Shown: positions 1,969-40,189 of the stretch, one piece after another | Layout of the letters: the number at the start of each line of letters is the position of its first letter | How positions within the stretch are numbered: position 1 is the first letter of the stretch | Notes under the pieces: model-generated | What the model saw: the letters and a program-made list of their open reading frames with translations, nothing else | Database searches by the model: none | What the model was told of the DNA's origin: nothing | Assembly (NCBI RefSeq): GCF_014336955.1 | Contig: NZ_QRAI01000003.1 | Coordinates: 372,001-436,000, forward strand | Origin: Saccharophagus sp. K07 | Lineage (GTDB): Bacteria; Pseudomonadota; Gammaproteobacteria; Pseudomonadales; Cellvibrionaceae | Direction of reading: 5' to 3' | DNA length: 64,000 nucleotides | Program-made: the position numbers and the translations under genes

Positions 1969-2646
1969 TTACCAATATTCAGGTTTAATGATTGGCTTTT
2001 TCTGAGTCGAGATCTTTGCTGGGAGTTGGCAGTCTGCCAATTCTTCATCCGTGATATATCGCCGGGTCCAGTCGGCATATTGGCTTAGCTGTTCATTGCC
2101 GGGCCGTCCATGAGTGCTTTTACGTATGGGTAGCACAACGCCAATTTTTACCTGATCGGCAAAATCCTCACGAATGGCGGCAAGCGCAGGTGCCAAATCG
2201 GTATCGTTGGATACAAATACCAACTGTTGGACGAGTCCCTTTGCCGTGTCACGGTAAGCTTCCAGCGCTATATTCACATCAGTCTGCTTTTCTTCCAGTT
2301 TCCATACATCAACCCTAGCCGTTTTATTCGGTGGTTGCTGGTATATGGGCAAACAAGCCTTCTCGAGCGCGTAGTAGCCTTTGATGATGCGAACGTAGTC
2401 CGGGTAAAGCTGCATCAATGCTCGATGGTACGCCTGCTGGGCGTGCTGAGCGGCTTGGCCATTACTGGCAATTTTTGCCCGAATATCCGCAGTAAAGAAC
2501 TTGAGAGAAACTGGCTGGCAGGAGGGGCTTTGTGCATGCAGGATGCGTTGGAAAAACAGCTTGTACAGGTCCAGCCACTTATCCTTGGAGTGCTTAAGAC
2601 ACCCGTAGAAAAGGTTATAACCATCGATATAAACGATTGTTTTCAA
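1969..2646 (-). CDS. NYN-domain (LabA/DUF88-like) PIN-fold putative RNase
   Basis: 225 codons. The N-terminus VYIDGYNLFYG contains the conserved first Asp and Asn of the NYN/PIN fold, and VFVSNDTDLAPAL in the C-terminal half supplies the later acidic residues. NYN proteins are PIN-like metal-dependent RNases, or RNA-binding relatives. The gene begins with TTG (2644-2646); its first codons overlap the stop of a 69-codon upstream frame as TTGA, and the Shine-Dalgarno is weak, which suggests translational coupling. It follows the hsd genes on the same strand and probably belongs to the same defence island. The cellular target cannot be read from the sequence. Confidence 0.85.
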   Translation of the reverse strand: MKTIVYIDGYNLFYGCLKHSKDKWLDLYKLFFQRILHAQSPSCQPVSLKFFTADIRAKIASNGQAAQHAQQAYHRALMQLYPDYVRIIKGYYALEKACLPIYQQPPNKTARVDVWKLEEKQTDVNIALEAYRDTAKGLVQQLVFVSNDTDLAPALAAIREDFADQVKIGVVLPIRKSTHGRPGNEQLSQYADWTRRYITDEELADCQLPAKISTQKKPIIKPEYW

Positions 2647-2852
2647 AGCACTTTCCCTGGCCTAGAAATGAAAAAACCGCCCAAAAGGCGGTTTTTCCGC
2701 CCCAAGCAGCAACCAACTGAATGGCCCTGCAAGGGGTGAGTCGTTCTGTAAGTATAGCCAACAACCAACTGAATGCAATGGCGTTGGGGATGCACAAAGG
2801 CAGGCCATACGCCTGAAAGTTCCTTGTTTTTAGCGGGTGTGACTTGTGTCAT
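2643..2852 (-). CDS. Small 69-residue ORF leading into the NYN gene
   Basis: ATG at 2850-2852 with GAGG upstream; the stop TGA overlaps the TTG start of the NYN gene. The protein is basic and not clearly homologous to anything. The segment YRTTHPLQGHSVGCC recalls the short arginine/threonine motif of phage Ash/Icd-like ORFs, but I am not certain of this. Notably, the frame runs straight through a strong intrinsic terminator hairpin (2672-2696). This makes a role as leader or attenuator at least as likely as a functional protein. Confidence 0.35.
   Translation of the reverse strand: MTQVTPAKNKELSGVWPAFVHPQRHCIQLVVGYTYRTTHPLQGHSVGCCLGRKNRLLGGFFISRPGKVL
2672..2696 (-). terminator. Intrinsic terminator before the NYN gene
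   Basis: A 10-bp perfect stem (2672-2681 with 2687-2696) and 5-base loop, followed on the minus strand by a T run (2671-2676). It lies downstream of hsdS and only about 26 bases upstream of the NYN start, inside the 69-codon ORF. It can end the hsd transcript or act as an attenuator for NYN. Confidence 0.8.
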
Positions 2853-2917
2853 AAACCGAGCCTCTATATCCCTCGTCTCGTCGCCGCAAATATATCCGAA
2901 CCGACATGATGGCCTCC

Positions 2918-4144
2918 TTAGTTGTCGACTTTTACCCTTCGTTTTCCTGTTAATAGCTGCTGCATTAGGGCCTTTTTCTCTTGCTTTAAGGCATCGAGCT
3001 TTTGTTGCAAAGCAGAGACTTCCTGATCAGCGGTGGAAAGTACAGCGGCGATTTTTTGTTGTTCCTCCATAGAGGGAAGATACAGAGCGAAGTCTTTAAC
3101 CATCGCCGCATTTAGATTTGATTGAGTTCCCTGCTGGCCTTGAAGTTTTATTTTTTCCTTCAAGGAAGTTAAGAAGAAATACAAAAATTCAAAGTTAAGA
3201 TCTGATTTAGGTCTAATTCCTAAGATTGCTTGCGAAGAACTCAATGGCACTTGAGCTATGCTGCATTCTCCAATTGATGCGTACATCGCATAAAGAACAC
3301 TATTCTTTGGATAGATACGTGCTGATGAATTCTCCAAGCCAAGTTTGGTGAGATACTTTTCAGTTGAGGAAATCCATTTTCCTTGCTTGGTCATATCAGC
3401 AATAGATACCCAGGGAATATTTCCTCCGTAATATTCTTCGATATTGGATTTTGGTGTACCACCGCTATTCATATCGGCCACAGAACCTAGTCTTACCTTC
3501 TTCCACTCCCCCCCAAACCTAACCCCATTCTTATCCAACAACCGCTTCTTCCCAGTAAGCAACTGCTGCATCAAGGCTTTTTTCTGCTGCTGGCTGTTGG
3601 CGAGCAGTTTTTCGGTGACGGTGATGGCCTTATCCCAGGTGGAGAGGATTTGGGCGATTTTTTTTTGTTCGGGTAATGGTGGGAGCGAAACCTTAACTTT
3701 TGCTAAATCTTTTTGCCCTATATTAGCTCGAACAGCTCCCTGTCCAAGTTTTATTACTTGATTTCTAAACTTGGATGATTGAAATAAATACACAGAATAC
3801 GCAGGAGAGAGGATTCCATTGCTTGGCCTAGCGCGAATTACAAAGCCACCAAAAACAGCAGGTTTATCGTCTAGATAAACTGCTGACATGGCTATTTCAT
3901 CAAATGTCTCGGAGGTGCGATTAAATAACACGTCTCCAAACTTAAGCAAGTTACTTTCTAACTGACTTTCAGCGACATTAACCCGCCCTATAATCTTATC
4001 TTCAGTAAGGATATCGTTACCAAAAACATCCATAACATTAACGAATTTTAGCCCGTACCCATATTGGCTCTTATCAGCATTAAGCCCATTCTTGAACTCC
4101 ATAAAATCGCCAAGGTGGCACGACATCCATGAATTAGGCACCAT
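2918..4144 (-). CDS. hsdS: Type I restriction-modification specificity subunit HsdS
   Basis: I choose the ATG at 4142-4144 (MVPNSWM; 408 residues). It sits 8 bases after GGAGGAG and overlaps the end of the fic gene, as expected for coupled translation; the longer frame from 4171 lacks this. The protein has two target-recognition halves. Each ends in a helical spacer of the same type: SLPPLPEQKKIAQIL with KKALMQQLLTGKKR in the first, LPSMEEQQKIAAVL with KKALMQQLLTGKRR in the second. HsdS determines the bipartite DNA sequence recognised by the HsdM/HsdR complex. The near-identical spacer ends are typical of S subunits that can recombine. The gene is the last of the hsdM-fic-hsdS unit, and a terminator lies about 220 bases downstream. 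Confidence 0.92.
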   Translation of the reverse strand: MVPNSWMSCHLGDFMEFKNGLNADKSQYGYGLKFVNVMDVFGNDILTEDKIIGRVNVAESQLESNLLKFGDVLFNRTSETFDEIAMSAVYLDDKPAVFGGFVIRARPSNGILSPAYSVYLFQSSKFRNQVIKLGQGAVRANIGQKDLAKVKVSLPPLPEQKKIAQILSTWDKAITVTEKLLANSQQQKKALMQQLLTGKKRLLDKNGVRFGGEWKKVRLGSVADMNSGGTPKSNIEEYYGGNIPWVSIADMTKQGKWISSTEKYLTKLGLENSSARIYPKNSVLYAMYASIGECSIAQVPLSSSQAILGIRPKSDLNFEFLYFFLTSLKEKIKLQGQQGTQSNLNAAMVKDFALYLPSMEEQQKIAAVLSTADQEVSALQQKLDALKQEKKALMQQLLTGKRRVKVDN

Positions 4145-34987: not shown

Positions 34988-37165
<2,178 letters not shown>

Positions 37166-37182: not shown

Positions 37183-37210
37183 AGGCCATCAAGTCCGGAT
37201 TTGATGGCCT
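37183..37210. terminator. Stem-loop between convergent uvrD and the proline-rich protein gene
   Basis: A perfect 10-bp stem (AGGCCATCAA with TTGATGGCCT) and an 8-base loop. No T tract on either strand, so it may act as a weak bidirectional terminator or 3' protective hairpin. Confidence 0.6.
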
Positions 37211-37228: not shown

Positions 37229-37564
37229 TTACATCATGCCTTTAAGTTTCAGTTGTTGCTCCATCTGAGAAATCTTTCTCGTCAGTTGCACCAATTGAGC
37301 ATTAATCTGCGTATATTGATCTCGCGGATCCCGCATTCCGTCAGGTGAAGGTGGTGGTGGAGGGGGTGTACCATGGCTACCAGGTACTGGTTCGCTCTGA
37401 TTAGTATTGCCATTCGGAAATAACGTTGCGTATTCTCGAATGATTTCTGCTATCAAATACGGTGATTTGCGCAGATCTATAGTATCACCATATCGCTTAA
37501 CGATTTCTTTTATTGCTTTCTCTTGCTGTTTAACAGTTTCATCAGGATTGTTTAGCTTTTTCAT
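37229..37564 (-). CDS. Small proline-rich protein, candidate substrate of the adjacent hydroxylase and glycosyltransferase
   Basis: I choose the ATG 37562-37564: GGAGG lies 4-5 bases before it and it overlaps the hydroxylase stop as ATGA. 111 residues. A charged helical N-terminus (KQQEKAIKEIVKRYG, then LIAEIIREYATLFP) is followed by a flexible segment with PVPGSHG and a run of six prolines plus SP (67-74), then a heptad-like helix (INAQLVQLTRKISQMEQQL, 87-105) ending KLKGMM. There is no signal peptide. Family not recognised. The coupled enzymes upstream suggest its prolines are hydroxylated and glycosylated; this is inference. Confidence 0.75.
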   Translation of the reverse strand: MKKLNNPDETVKQQEKAIKEIVKRYGDTIDLRKSPYLIAEIIREYATLFPNGNTNQSEPVPGSHGTPPPPPPSPDGMRDPRDQYTQINAQLVQLTRKISQMEQQLKLKGMM

Positions 37565-38184
37565 AATGCCTCCATTGAATGTTTGAAATTGCTCTGTCGC
37601 TGCCAAGTTTGCAAAATCACCTTGATTCCTCGAACAACCGGTTCACCAGAATGAATCATCGCGAAATTTGGATTTCCTGTCGCCAATAGGTTGTCCCAAA
37701 CCACTAATCGACCAGGAACCGGCTTGATCCATAAATTTAACGCACGAAAATATGTCTCTCCCCCTTCCAGAGGGGCTTGCAAGTACAGCAGGATCGTTTT
37801 AGTTCGTGGGCCTTCAGGATCTTGGTCACCTGAGTGGCTGTCTAAATGGGGTTCAAAATATTGACCTGGATAATAACGAGTAACCTGCCAGGGCTCCCAA
37901 TTGCTTGGATTGAGATCTTTTACTCGAGAAACAACTCTCGTTGTAATCTCCAATAACACATCATTAAATTGGTCCCGAGGAAAAAACAGCGAATTGCTGG
38001 TTCTGCAATTTGAATAACCATATTCCAATTTCTTACCATCTTTTATGCTCATAACAGCGCTTCTTTCCCAAAGGCGATTATCAAAACTCAGCAAGAGACG
38101 ATTGCACTCATTCCGCGACAAGACTCGATCGAAAATGTTGATTTGATTCTGCCGCAATCGGTCAATAGAACTAGTTCGATTCAT
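37561..38184 (-). CDS. 2-oxoglutarate/Fe(II) prolyl 4-hydroxylase-like oxygenase
   Basis: 207 residues. The double-stranded beta-helix motif YYPGQYFEPHLDSH gives His113 and Asp115, and IHSGEPVVRGIKVILQTW gives His178 and the 2-oxoglutarate-binding Lys188; RTKTILLYLQAPLEGGETYF lies between. This is the P4Hc pattern, which hydroxylates protein proline, as in bacterial P4H proteins and Skp1/EF-Tu hydroxylases. Cytosolic, no signal. It overlaps both neighbours by 4 bases (ATGA), placing it in one unit with a GT60-like transferase and a proline-rich protein. The substrate is not proven. Confidence 0.9.
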   Translation of the reverse strand: MNRTSSIDRLRQNQINIFDRVLSRNECNRLLLSFDNRLWERSAVMSIKDGKKLEYGYSNCRTSNSLFFPRDQFNDVLLEITTRVVSRVKDLNPSNWEPWQVTRYYPGQYFEPHLDSHSGDQDPEGPRTKTILLYLQAPLEGGETYFRALNLWIKPVPGRLVVWDNLLATGNPNFAMIHSGEPVVRGIKVILQTWQRQSNFKHSMEAL

Positions 38185-39056
38185 ATCACCAAGTCCCAGC
38201 CAACCAACTGCTTAAAGCTATTGAAGCTTCGTTTCTTTCCACGCGGGAAACCGCTAAGCTCTTGTCCGAGAAGGCTCGCTCGCACTCGCTCATAAGAGAC
38301 TTGATTCAACTCCGTCCAATCTTGATGATCATCCCAGTGTGTCACTCGAGTGCCGCGATCATAAAGATGCCAGGCAACCAATTTTTGCGGATGAAAAAAA
38401 TCGTAACCATGACAATGTGCGCGTAATGCAGTCGTAATATCGTCACCGAAAAAATAAATGTCGGGGTCTATCGGAACCTCCTCATTGAACCGTCCGTCCG
38501 CGAAAACAAAGCACATTCCGAGAAATCTGGCGGGCACTGGCTCTTTCAGCCAGCGGAATAAAGGTAAATACTCTGCATAAAATCGGATCAACATCCCCAT
38601 CTCATGATTTCTAGGATAGATTTTTGTAGGAAAGTTGGCGCGATCCTGAGGAAAGTTCTGCGGAGAATAATAAGCTGGAGGTAAGGTGGAAATTATCGGC
38701 TTTTTGTGCCCTTGCCTTTTGAGCTGTATCATCGTCTGAACGAGGTATTTATCCCAACCTTTGACAAATCGTAAATGTGAATCGATTAGAAAAGAGTATT
38801 CTTGTCCATCCCATTGTTGTTGCAAAATTCGCCGAGCCCAGCCACAACCTCGACTTTTCCGCCAATCAATATCAATAATATTGACCTGTGGATTCTCGGT
38901 AATGGATTTTGGCAAAACTTCAGATGCGTCGTGCTGCCAACATATCCAGACATCCAATGCTTCCTTGTCTTCCGCATTCTCGAAAAGACTCGTAATGGTG
39001 GATGCGAGCTCTGAGTCTCGATATGCCGGTATTTGCACAAATATTCGCTGCTTCAT
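38181..39056 (-). CDS. GT60-like GlcNAc-transferase (Skp1 Gnt1-type fold)
   Basis: 291 residues. The stretch RIFVQIPAYRDSELASTI, WICWQHDASEVLP, DWRKSRGCGWARRILQQ and SFLIDSHLRFVKGWDKYL, with the metal-binding DSH at 92-94, is the pattern of PF11397. That family includes the Dictyostelium enzyme adding GlcNAc to hydroxyproline of Skp1. No membrane segment, so cytosolic. First gene of the unit, with its stop overlapping the hydroxylase start. The likely donor is UDP-GlcNAc; the acceptor is inferred, not shown. An upstream inverted repeat may regulate the divergent gene rather than this one. Confidence 0.88.
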   Translation of the reverse strand: MKQRIFVQIPAYRDSELASTITSLFENAEDKEALDVWICWQHDASEVLPKSITENPQVNIIDIDWRKSRGCGWARRILQQQWDGQEYSFLIDSHLRFVKGWDKYLVQTMIQLKRQGHKKPIISTLPPAYYSPQNFPQDRANFPTKIYPRNHEMGMLIRFYAEYLPLFRWLKEPVPARFLGMCFVFADGRFNEEVPIDPDIYFFGDDITTALRAHCHGYDFFHPQKLVAWHLYDRGTRVTHWDDHQDWTELNQVSYERVRASLLGQELSGFPRGKKRSFNSFKQLVGWDLVI

Positions 39057-39208: not shown

Positions 39209-39307
39209 TTCTCCCTGACATAGAAAAAGCAGATCCTAAAAAATTATGGCGGAAAACTGAAATAGTTTTTCTATCCATTAATAGCTAAATAGCTGAAGGA
39301 ATTGGCC

Positions 39308-40189
39308 ATGCAAAGAAAAATCCTAATTTTTCTAATACCTTTATTTTTTGTCAGCGCTTATCTCCTCGTGGGCTGTGAAATTACGCGCACGGTGAGCAAC
39401 AAAGATAAGCCAGTGTCGGGAGCCACGGTTTTCGAGCTATACGTTCCTCAAAGCAATCCGGATAAGGCTTTTAATATAGTATTTGTACCGGATTCGTCTT
39501 ACGGAGATTTGTCGGTTCTGGCAAATCGGCAAGCGTTTGTGGATGATATGGCGGACGTTATTGAAAATGCGTATTGGCAGAATCAAGCGTATTTCAACGG
39601 GCTATTTTATTACAATTATTATTACATGACCGCAACAGGTTCAGTTACCGAGAATCCACCCGATACAAAAGGAAACTTTCGCTGCCCAACCGTGGTGTGG
39701 CCCTCTCAGGTCAACACCGACGCCGCATTTGCTGACCAACTTGTCTTAATACACCGAAACAAACTGCGCGACTGTGGCGGCGGTGGTCGTGTAACGGCAG
39801 AACCAAACAGCTACAGAACCATAGTGCACGAGACGGGGCATGGATTATTTGGGTTGCCCGATGAATACTGCTGTGACAGTAGTTATTCAGAGGTGCGTCC
39901 AATCCTCTATGCCACGCAACATGGTTGCACAACCGACCCTAACAACGCTTCCTGGCGCAACTGTGTATCTATGACATCTTCCCGAGATGGATCCGTATGG
40001 TGGCGGTCTCAAGGAAATATCACTACCAATTTAATCATGCGCAATACTGAAAATGAGGTTTGGGAATCGGGTCCAGCTGATTGGTTTTTAATGCGCAAAA
40101 TTTATCAAGATGCCTTAGGCGTATCCATCGATGACCCGAGCGTATTTGCTCCCGGACAATGGAGTTATTCCGTTCCTCCCGCACCTTGA
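39308..40189 (+). CDS. Lipoprotein metallopeptidase of the M64 (IgA peptidase) type
   Basis: ATG 39308 with GAAGGAA 7 bases upstream; 293 residues. Lipobox YLLVGC gives lipidated Cys23. After a short linker the domain begins with FNIVFVPDSSYGDLSV, and the zinc motif HETGHGLFGLPDEY is at 174-187 (HExxH with the third ligand Asp), as in M64 peptidases. It also has paired Cys residues (CCDSS, HGCTTD). It cleaves proteins at the cell surface; target unknown. It is followed 23 bases later by a secreted partner gene. Confidence 0.88.
   Translation: MQRKILIFLIPLFFVSAYLLVGCEITRTVSNKDKPVSGATVFELYVPQSNPDKAFNIVFVPDSSYGDLSVLANRQAFVDDMADVIENAYWQNQAYFNGLFYYNYYYMTATGSVTENPPDTKGNFRCPTVVWPSQVNTDAAFADQLVLIHRNKLRDCGGGGRVTAEPNSYRTIVHETGHGLFGLPDEYCCDSSYSEVRPILYATQHGCTTDPNNASWRNCVSMTSSRDGSVWWRSQGNITTNLIMRNTENEVWESGPADWFLMRKIYQDALGVSIDDPSVFAPGQWSYSVPPAP

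Follow-up and report, generated by a model that had tools for sequence, protein, structure and literature searches.

A GT60-type glycosyltransferase, a prolyl hydroxylase and a small Gly/Pro-linker protein form a candidate hydroxyproline-glycosylation cassette in Saccharophagus sp. K07

Analysis of the window, i.e. the whole stretch of 64,000 nucleotides from Saccharophagus sp. K07 studied here, revealed a compact unit of three minus-strand genes encoding a glycosyltransferase (GT), a prolyl-4-hydroxylase-type oxygenase (P4H) and a small protein (Table 1). Both stop/start overlaps that the preliminary description had reported between the three reading frames are present in the sequence, and a GGAGG lies 4 nt upstream of the ATG of the small-protein gene. 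The inverted repeat behind the operon lacks a T run and is not called by the terminator scan, and the promoter and terminator scan returned sites no more frequently than in shuffled sequence. The lipoprotein-like gene on the other flank carries an HExxH-like motif (by eye) and shows a sub-threshold match to M64 peptidases (E = 0.0082).

Table 1 Features of the operon and its immediate surroundings, in window coordinates.
Feature	Position	Strand	Basis
GT gene, GT60/PF11397-type glycosyltransferase, 291 aa	38181..39056	−	ORF and Pfam
ATGA stop/start overlap, GT to P4H	38181..38184	−	sequence
P4H gene, prolyl-4-hydroxylase-type 2OG-Fe(II) oxygenase, 207 aa	37561..38184	−	ORF and Pfam
ATGA stop/start overlap, P4H to small protein	37561..37564	−	sequence
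Small-protein gene, 111 aa, proposed substrate	37229..37564	−	ORF, homologues
Six-proline run, residues 67–72 of the small protein, proposed target region	37349..37366	−	
Inverted repeat, 10 bp with 8-nt loop, between operon end and uvrD end	37183..37210		by eye
uvrD, flanks the operon	34988-37165	+	name by eye
Lipoprotein-like gene, divergent, other flank of the operon	39302-40189	+	name by eye

The G+C content of the cassette is 0.439, compared with 0.493 for the window. In a genome of the same genus (G001), the cassette, the peptidase-like gene and gyrB are all absent from the 7.8 kb following uvrD, the join itself being unmapped. As a sign of recent insertion of the cassette, the G+C difference is weak evidence. 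The match of the uvrD-like gene of G001 (L212:1031-3209) is split over two frames, with the junction near residue 478.

The GT matches the Pfam family PF11397 with an E-value of 1.3e-53 and 183 bits against a curated cut-off of 21, and thereby passed the profile check of the earlier assignment, which had been based on the PF11397 pattern and the DSH motif, located at residues 92–94. D92, H94 and H230 do not vary across 40 sequences and are presumably the metal ligands, by analogy with GalNAc-T2. The AlphaFold2 model shows a GT-A fold (pLDDT 94.9) with GalNAc-T2 as its best structural match (Z = 23.6, rmsd 3.4 over 270 residues), and polypeptide GalNAc-transferases including GalNAc-T2 were also retrieved by Foldseek (5.3e-12); at the sequence level, the GT profile gave no match in the PDB at E up to 0.1. 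The 291 residues hold the GT domain alone, and a C-terminal lectin domain is absent. Judging from sequence and model, the protein is a GT60/PF11397-type enzyme related to polypeptide GalNAc-transferases (ppGalNAc-Ts), with predicted transferase activity. According to passages of two publications, GT60 also holds a polypeptide GlcNAc-transferase of Trypanosoma cruzi (PMC6939170), and mucin-type glycosylation in Dictyostelium is started by a GT60 enzyme (PMC3188802), so that the family alone does not give a hydroxyproline acceptor. The activity of TgGnt1 is stated to depend on PhyA (PMC6939170).

The second gene product matches PF13640 (E = 1.6e-11, Pfam). Its His113, Asp115, His178 and Lys188, singled out in the preliminary description, correspond to the HxD...H iron triad and the 2OG-binding lysine of prolyl 4-hydroxylases and are the same in all 10 cassette sequences aligned, that of the window among them. 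Compared with solved P4Hs, the single sequence reached 2e-14 at best (phmmer, PDB), and a profile of the 10 cassette P4Hs retrieved 2jig (4.2e-24), 7zsc (P4H alpha-2; 4.8e-24) and 3itq (7.9e-23). On sequence grounds, the nearest relatives of the enzyme in these comparisons are the Chlamydomonas, collagen, anthrax and chlorella-virus P4Hs, and 4-hydroxyproline is its predicted product. P4Hs of the collagen/plant class prefer Pro-rich or collagen-like peptides. A passage of PMC7864055 identifies 3gze as Chlamydomonas P4H, 5c5t as a viral P4H, 4iw3/4j25 as PPHD, the EF-Tu hydroxylase, and 6t8m as DdPhyA. Neither DdPhyA (6t8m) nor EGLN was among the matches (sequence E ≤ 1; profile E ≤ 0.001), an absence that is no proof, and PPHD (4iw3) was missing among the PDB matches of the window's P4H at E ≤ 1. 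As the cassette P4H is nearest to another P4H class and neither PhyA nor EGLN was among its matches, it would seem to be analogous to PhyA rather than the same enzyme.

The genome itself contains four PF13640 places, that of the cassette included. In a PDB search covering two of the others, the separate gene L201 matched 4iw3/4j25 at 1.1e-38 and 6t8m at 8.5e-9 and, in contrast to the cassette P4H, also retrieved EGLN, and L203 was P4H-like (5.9e-8 to 3itq); L202 is a further such gene. Since L201 provides a PPHD-like enzyme, EF-Tu, which had been named beforehand as a possible target of the cassette P4H, is disfavoured and unlikely in that role.

The small protein consists of an N-terminal helical domain with the motif YGxxIDLxxxPxxLIEIIRxY, a Gly/Pro linker and a long C-terminal helix, with helices predicted by AlphaFold2 at residues 7–25, 36–48 and 80–107 and the linker modelled at low confidence; the model as a whole has a pTM of 0.33. 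A search against Pfam returned no family above the cut-off and no Skp1 model up to E = 1, and homology to Skp1 was accordingly dropped. No signal peptide was seen by eye in the small-protein system. The six-proline run between helices, on which attention had been focused initially, does exist, is encoded by mixed codons and lies between predicted helices, but a run of at least six prolines occurs in only 6 of the 10 short homologues (window included) and is absent in the remaining 4, and was thus rejected as the defining mark of the protein. From the aligned sequences, the conserved feature is rather the Gly/Pro linker between the helices, with the pattern DGG...PGG..P, in which Pro67 aligns with the sole linker proline that is invariant in the 10 homologues.

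Homologues of the small protein adjoin a GT and a P4H in nine other genomes. Among the best 80 of 520 loci used from a GT alignment search of the genome_contigs collection, six carry a P4H and the small protein beside the GT: a cyanobacterium, FACHB-502 (L019, with transposase-like genes on both sides, one of them examined with Pfam), Nocardia takedensis (L020), three mycobacteria (L021, L022 and L024) and an Actinomycetales MAG (L028). A small-protein profile search of 251 genomes of the M. brisbanense family gave eight matches at E ≤ 1e-3 including the centre, among them three new strong loci (E < 1e-16), all three with GT and P4H. Weak matches in four genomes and at another position in G607 (4e-5 to 7e-4) were left uncounted in this search, and the four weak matches inspected are Pro-rich stretches of longer ORFs. 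The gene order is GT-P4H-small throughout, the three new loci included, except in L021, L022 and L024 (small-GT-P4H). Pairwise comparison of the small gene in three mycobacterial copies revealed 0–4.5 nonsynonymous against 11–11.5 synonymous changes per pair. This synonymous excess, together with the recurrence of the trio in distant genomes, indicates more than chance. Linkage with the small protein, proposed at the outset as a check, is conserved in distant genomes and across phyla; by eye, with Pfam for a few, no constant neighbours beyond the trio were found across the cassette loci.

Among close relatives, the linkage check does not apply, as 57 of 58 genomes in the relatives search lack the GT and PF11397 was found only in the own genome. 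Within the class, PF11397 occurs in 4 of 369 genomes, own included, and the other three (L014-L016) show no P4H or small protein within short flanks; at L015:728-2167, a reading frame resembling GT2 and HPr kinase follows the PF11397 gene (by eye). At E ≤ 1e-5, the small protein was detected once among 398 genomes sampled from the phylum, in 1 of 292 around the cyanobacterial genome and in 1 of 346 around the actinomycete MAG, in each case the centre genome itself, counts that rest on samples and on a limited number of first-look candidates scored per genome. Four small-protein matches in the relatives search (E 0.0017–0.0043; two with internal stop codons) and a few chance matches above 0.009 in another search were not counted. 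Within the genomes sampled, the unit is thus rare and of patchy occurrence.

Plasmids yielded no small or repeat protein (the latter described below), and scanning the viral_contigs collection with the small-protein and the P4H alignment, by a single pattern each, gave no confirmed case. PF11397-type genes are abundant there (L099-L178), with at least 587 of 600 pattern matches; neither a 2OG domain nor the small protein was detected in the 80 viral PF11397 loci kept. The oxygenase-cupin protein introduced below gave four partial plasmid matches (coverage at most 43%), whereas phages yielded none at 1e-20. The cassette has probably spread horizontally.

A GT tree was calculated from 113 rows comprising the window, the 80 genome_contigs loci (best 80 of 520), 20 of the 80 viral loci, six phage or plasmid loci, three class loci and L195-L197, using a quick method with SH-aLRT support only. 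A starred set of 15 rows with full support (SH-aLRT 100) unites ten short forms, i.e. cassettes of the type found in the window, four long forms and L023. Both partners are present in 14 of these 15 clade members, the contig of L023 stopping directly after the GT. Three of the 14 had been reached by way of the small protein; leaving these and the window aside, 10 of the 11 members retrieved with the GT have both partners. Within the set, the long forms group at 97, most other branching is open, and the tree does not show the short forms to share one origin.

Across the 80 cellular loci (best 80 of 520, some on short contigs), a 2OG match was found in 16 and not in 64, so that hydroxyproline cannot be deduced from membership in the GT family by itself. 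Outside the starred set, the broad 2OG profile matched in six loci. Two of these (L051 and, weakly, L040) have the match over 6 kb from the GT; the other four (L056, L059, L062 and L080) join GT and 2OG domains in one ORF of about 1800–2450 aa, that of L056 being cut at the contig end. These fusions, hosted by Rickettsiales and other alphaproteobacterial MAGs, contain in L062 and L059 eight PF11397 stretches each, corresponding to four tandem GT domains, and two 2OG stretches (Pfam), and both also match AhpC/TSA (below the cut-off in L059). All four have a divergent sulfotransferase-like gene as neighbour (by eye, with Pfam run on L062). Further PF11397 genes lie beside phage-tail-like genes on an Azospirillum plasmid (L009) and beside a type VI secretion cluster on a Burkholderia ambifaria plasmid (L012).

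The long form, found in 4 of the 80 loci (best 80 of 520), carries a repeat protein of 214–239 aa and an oxygenase-cupin protein next to the GT or at most 2.3 kb away from it. It occurs in Nocardioides astragali (L025), in two Nitrospira MAGs (L026 and L027, near-copies of each other) and in a Paracoccus MAG (L029). The oxygenase-cupin protein combines PF13640 with Cupin_8, as determined by Pfam on L027 and by homology in the others, and runs into the contig end in L026. The repeat proteins contain the motif PDGGxPEPGxPP in 4, 3, 3 and 3 copies (L025, L026, L027 and L029), with the prolines fixed across all 13 units and, by eye, neither Ser nor Thr inside the motif in 5 of them, although either can come after it; a degenerate fourth repeat of the Nitrospira proteins without the PDGGxP part was left uncounted. 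The short-form linker resembles one such unit. With the short profile, the N-termini of L027 and L026 were matched at 8e-4 and 1.2e-3, and the repeat stretches of both after their N-termini had been added to the profile. L025 and L029 were not found at 0.01, their N-termini being tied to the short form indirectly, by way of the Nitrospira proteins that they resemble. The resemblance of the long-form N-terminus to the short protein is weak. In L027, a PF01593 flavin amine-oxidoreductase-like gene (1988-3460) lies between GT and repeat protein, and a subtilase gene (PF00082) adjoins the cassette at L025:3620-8005 and L029:3569-7684.

Based on these data, we propose with a probability of roughly 60% a cytoplasmic cassette in which a linker proline of the small protein is hydroxylated by the P4H and a HexNAc is then placed on the resulting hydroxyproline. 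In detail, the P4H would use O2, 2-oxoglutarate and Fe(II) to hydroxylate at least one proline of the flexible Gly/Pro linker, whereupon the GT, with a divalent metal held at DSH and His230, would transfer HexNAc, probably alpha-GlcNAc from UDP-GlcNAc, onto the hydroxyproline thus formed. Docking of the enzymes may be the task of the N-terminal helical domain, and the long form would be a version of this system that has several target repeats plus a second oxygenase-type domain. The product could act as an oxygen-dependent switch or serve as a glycosylated structural or secreted peptide. The proposal draws on the genomic linkage, the repeats, the class of the P4H, a GT fold typical of protein O-glycosyltransferases and the GT-2OG fusions. 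Against it speak the Thr/Ser transferases within GT60, a Thr or Ser near proline in all 10 short linkers, the poly-Pro run missing in 4 of 10, the 64 loci without a 2OG domain and the faint N-terminal likeness of long and short forms.

Alternatively, the enzymes may act independently, with the P4H hydroxylating linker prolines and the GT glycosylating Thr or Ser near prolines in mucin style. Such a division of labour would agree with the Thr/Ser polypeptide GlcNAc-transferases reported for GT60 in passages of PMC6939170 and PMC3188802, with GT27 GalNAc-transferases as the best matches of the GT model and with the Thr/Ser residues of the linkers; we nevertheless regard it as unlikely, if worth keeping in view, since the short linker has one invariant proline but lacks a Ser/Thr column conserved throughout, and 5 of the 13 long-form motifs are free of Ser/Thr inside. 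Still less probable, in our estimation, is a role of the small protein as partner, scaffold or activator of enzymes whose true substrate is encoded elsewhere. Its predicted helical N-terminal domain and long C-terminal helix would fit an adaptor, as would the dispensable poly-Pro run, but a linker-like motif multiplied three to four times with its prolines fixed is the pattern that a target, unlike a scaffold, should show. Highly improbable, finally, is a loose accessory operon in which EF-Tu or some other housekeeping protein would be the target of the P4H and an envelope glycan that of the GT. A bacterial PHD-like enzyme does act on EF-Tu according to a passage of PMC7864055, and PF11397 genes occur in varied contexts; the separate PPHD-like gene of the genome and the retention of the trio across phyla in two gene orders argue against this reading.

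The hydroxylation-first cassette resembles the Skp1 PhyA and Gnt1 pathway of Dictyostelium and Toxoplasma in pairing a prolyl hydroxylase with a GT60 glycosyltransferase, probably in the cytosol. It differs in being bacterial, in a hydroxylase closest to another P4H class, in uniting the enzymes with a substrate candidate in one operon, in the lack of a Pfam family for that candidate and in the absence of further glycosyltransferases from the window's unit. The parallel to Skp1 suggested earlier holds for the GT60-type enzyme, the prolyl hydroxylase and the in-operon substrate candidate, but the P4H class does not seem to be that of PhyA; in sum, the preliminary observation is confirmed and its interpretation partly supported. 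With the GT60 ppGlcNAcTs and GT27 ppGalNAcTs, the cassette shares a GT-A fold, the DxH motif with a distal His and a Pro-containing acceptor candidate, but its GT is bacterial, tied to a prolyl hydroxylase and devoid of a C-terminal lectin domain. The closest solved relatives of its P4H, from Bacillus anthracis, PBCV-1 (vCPH) and Chlamydomonas, are not known to form part of such a cassette. In plant extensins and AGPs, a P4H of the same class acts before O-glycosylation of hydroxyproline in Pro-rich stretches; these hydroxyproline-rich glycoproteins, unlike the cassette, involve the secretory pathway, arabinose or galactose and other GT families. Compared with the leader-core arrangement of RiPPs, in which a leader is cleaved off and the modified core forms the C-terminus, the presumed target of the cassette is succeeded by a conserved helix at the C-terminus, and by eye neither a protease nor an exporter is a constant neighbour.

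Hydroxyproline-linked glycosylation is known from eukaryotes. Judged by titles and abstract starts, a literature search with little coverage of subscription papers retrieved no report of a bacterial cassette of hydroxylase, GT60 enzyme and substrate. A passage of PMC3188802 describes the hydroxyproline pathway as anciently related to bacterial glycosylation, and mentions no operon. As a tentative and rather doubtful extension, the cassettes may represent a new class of self-contained bacterial hydroxyproline-glycosylation modules, exchanged between phyla and built on a docking carrier with one to four Gly/Pro targets, possibly acting as an O2 switch and possibly connected with the origin of the Skp1-like pathway. 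If the proposed reactions are true, hydroxylase, GT60-type enzyme and substrate would constitute the simplest version of a hydroxyproline-glycosylation pathway, which would bear on the origin of the oxygen-sensing Skp1 pathway of protists, and the cassette could serve as a compact tool for the production of glycosylated hydroxyproline peptides.
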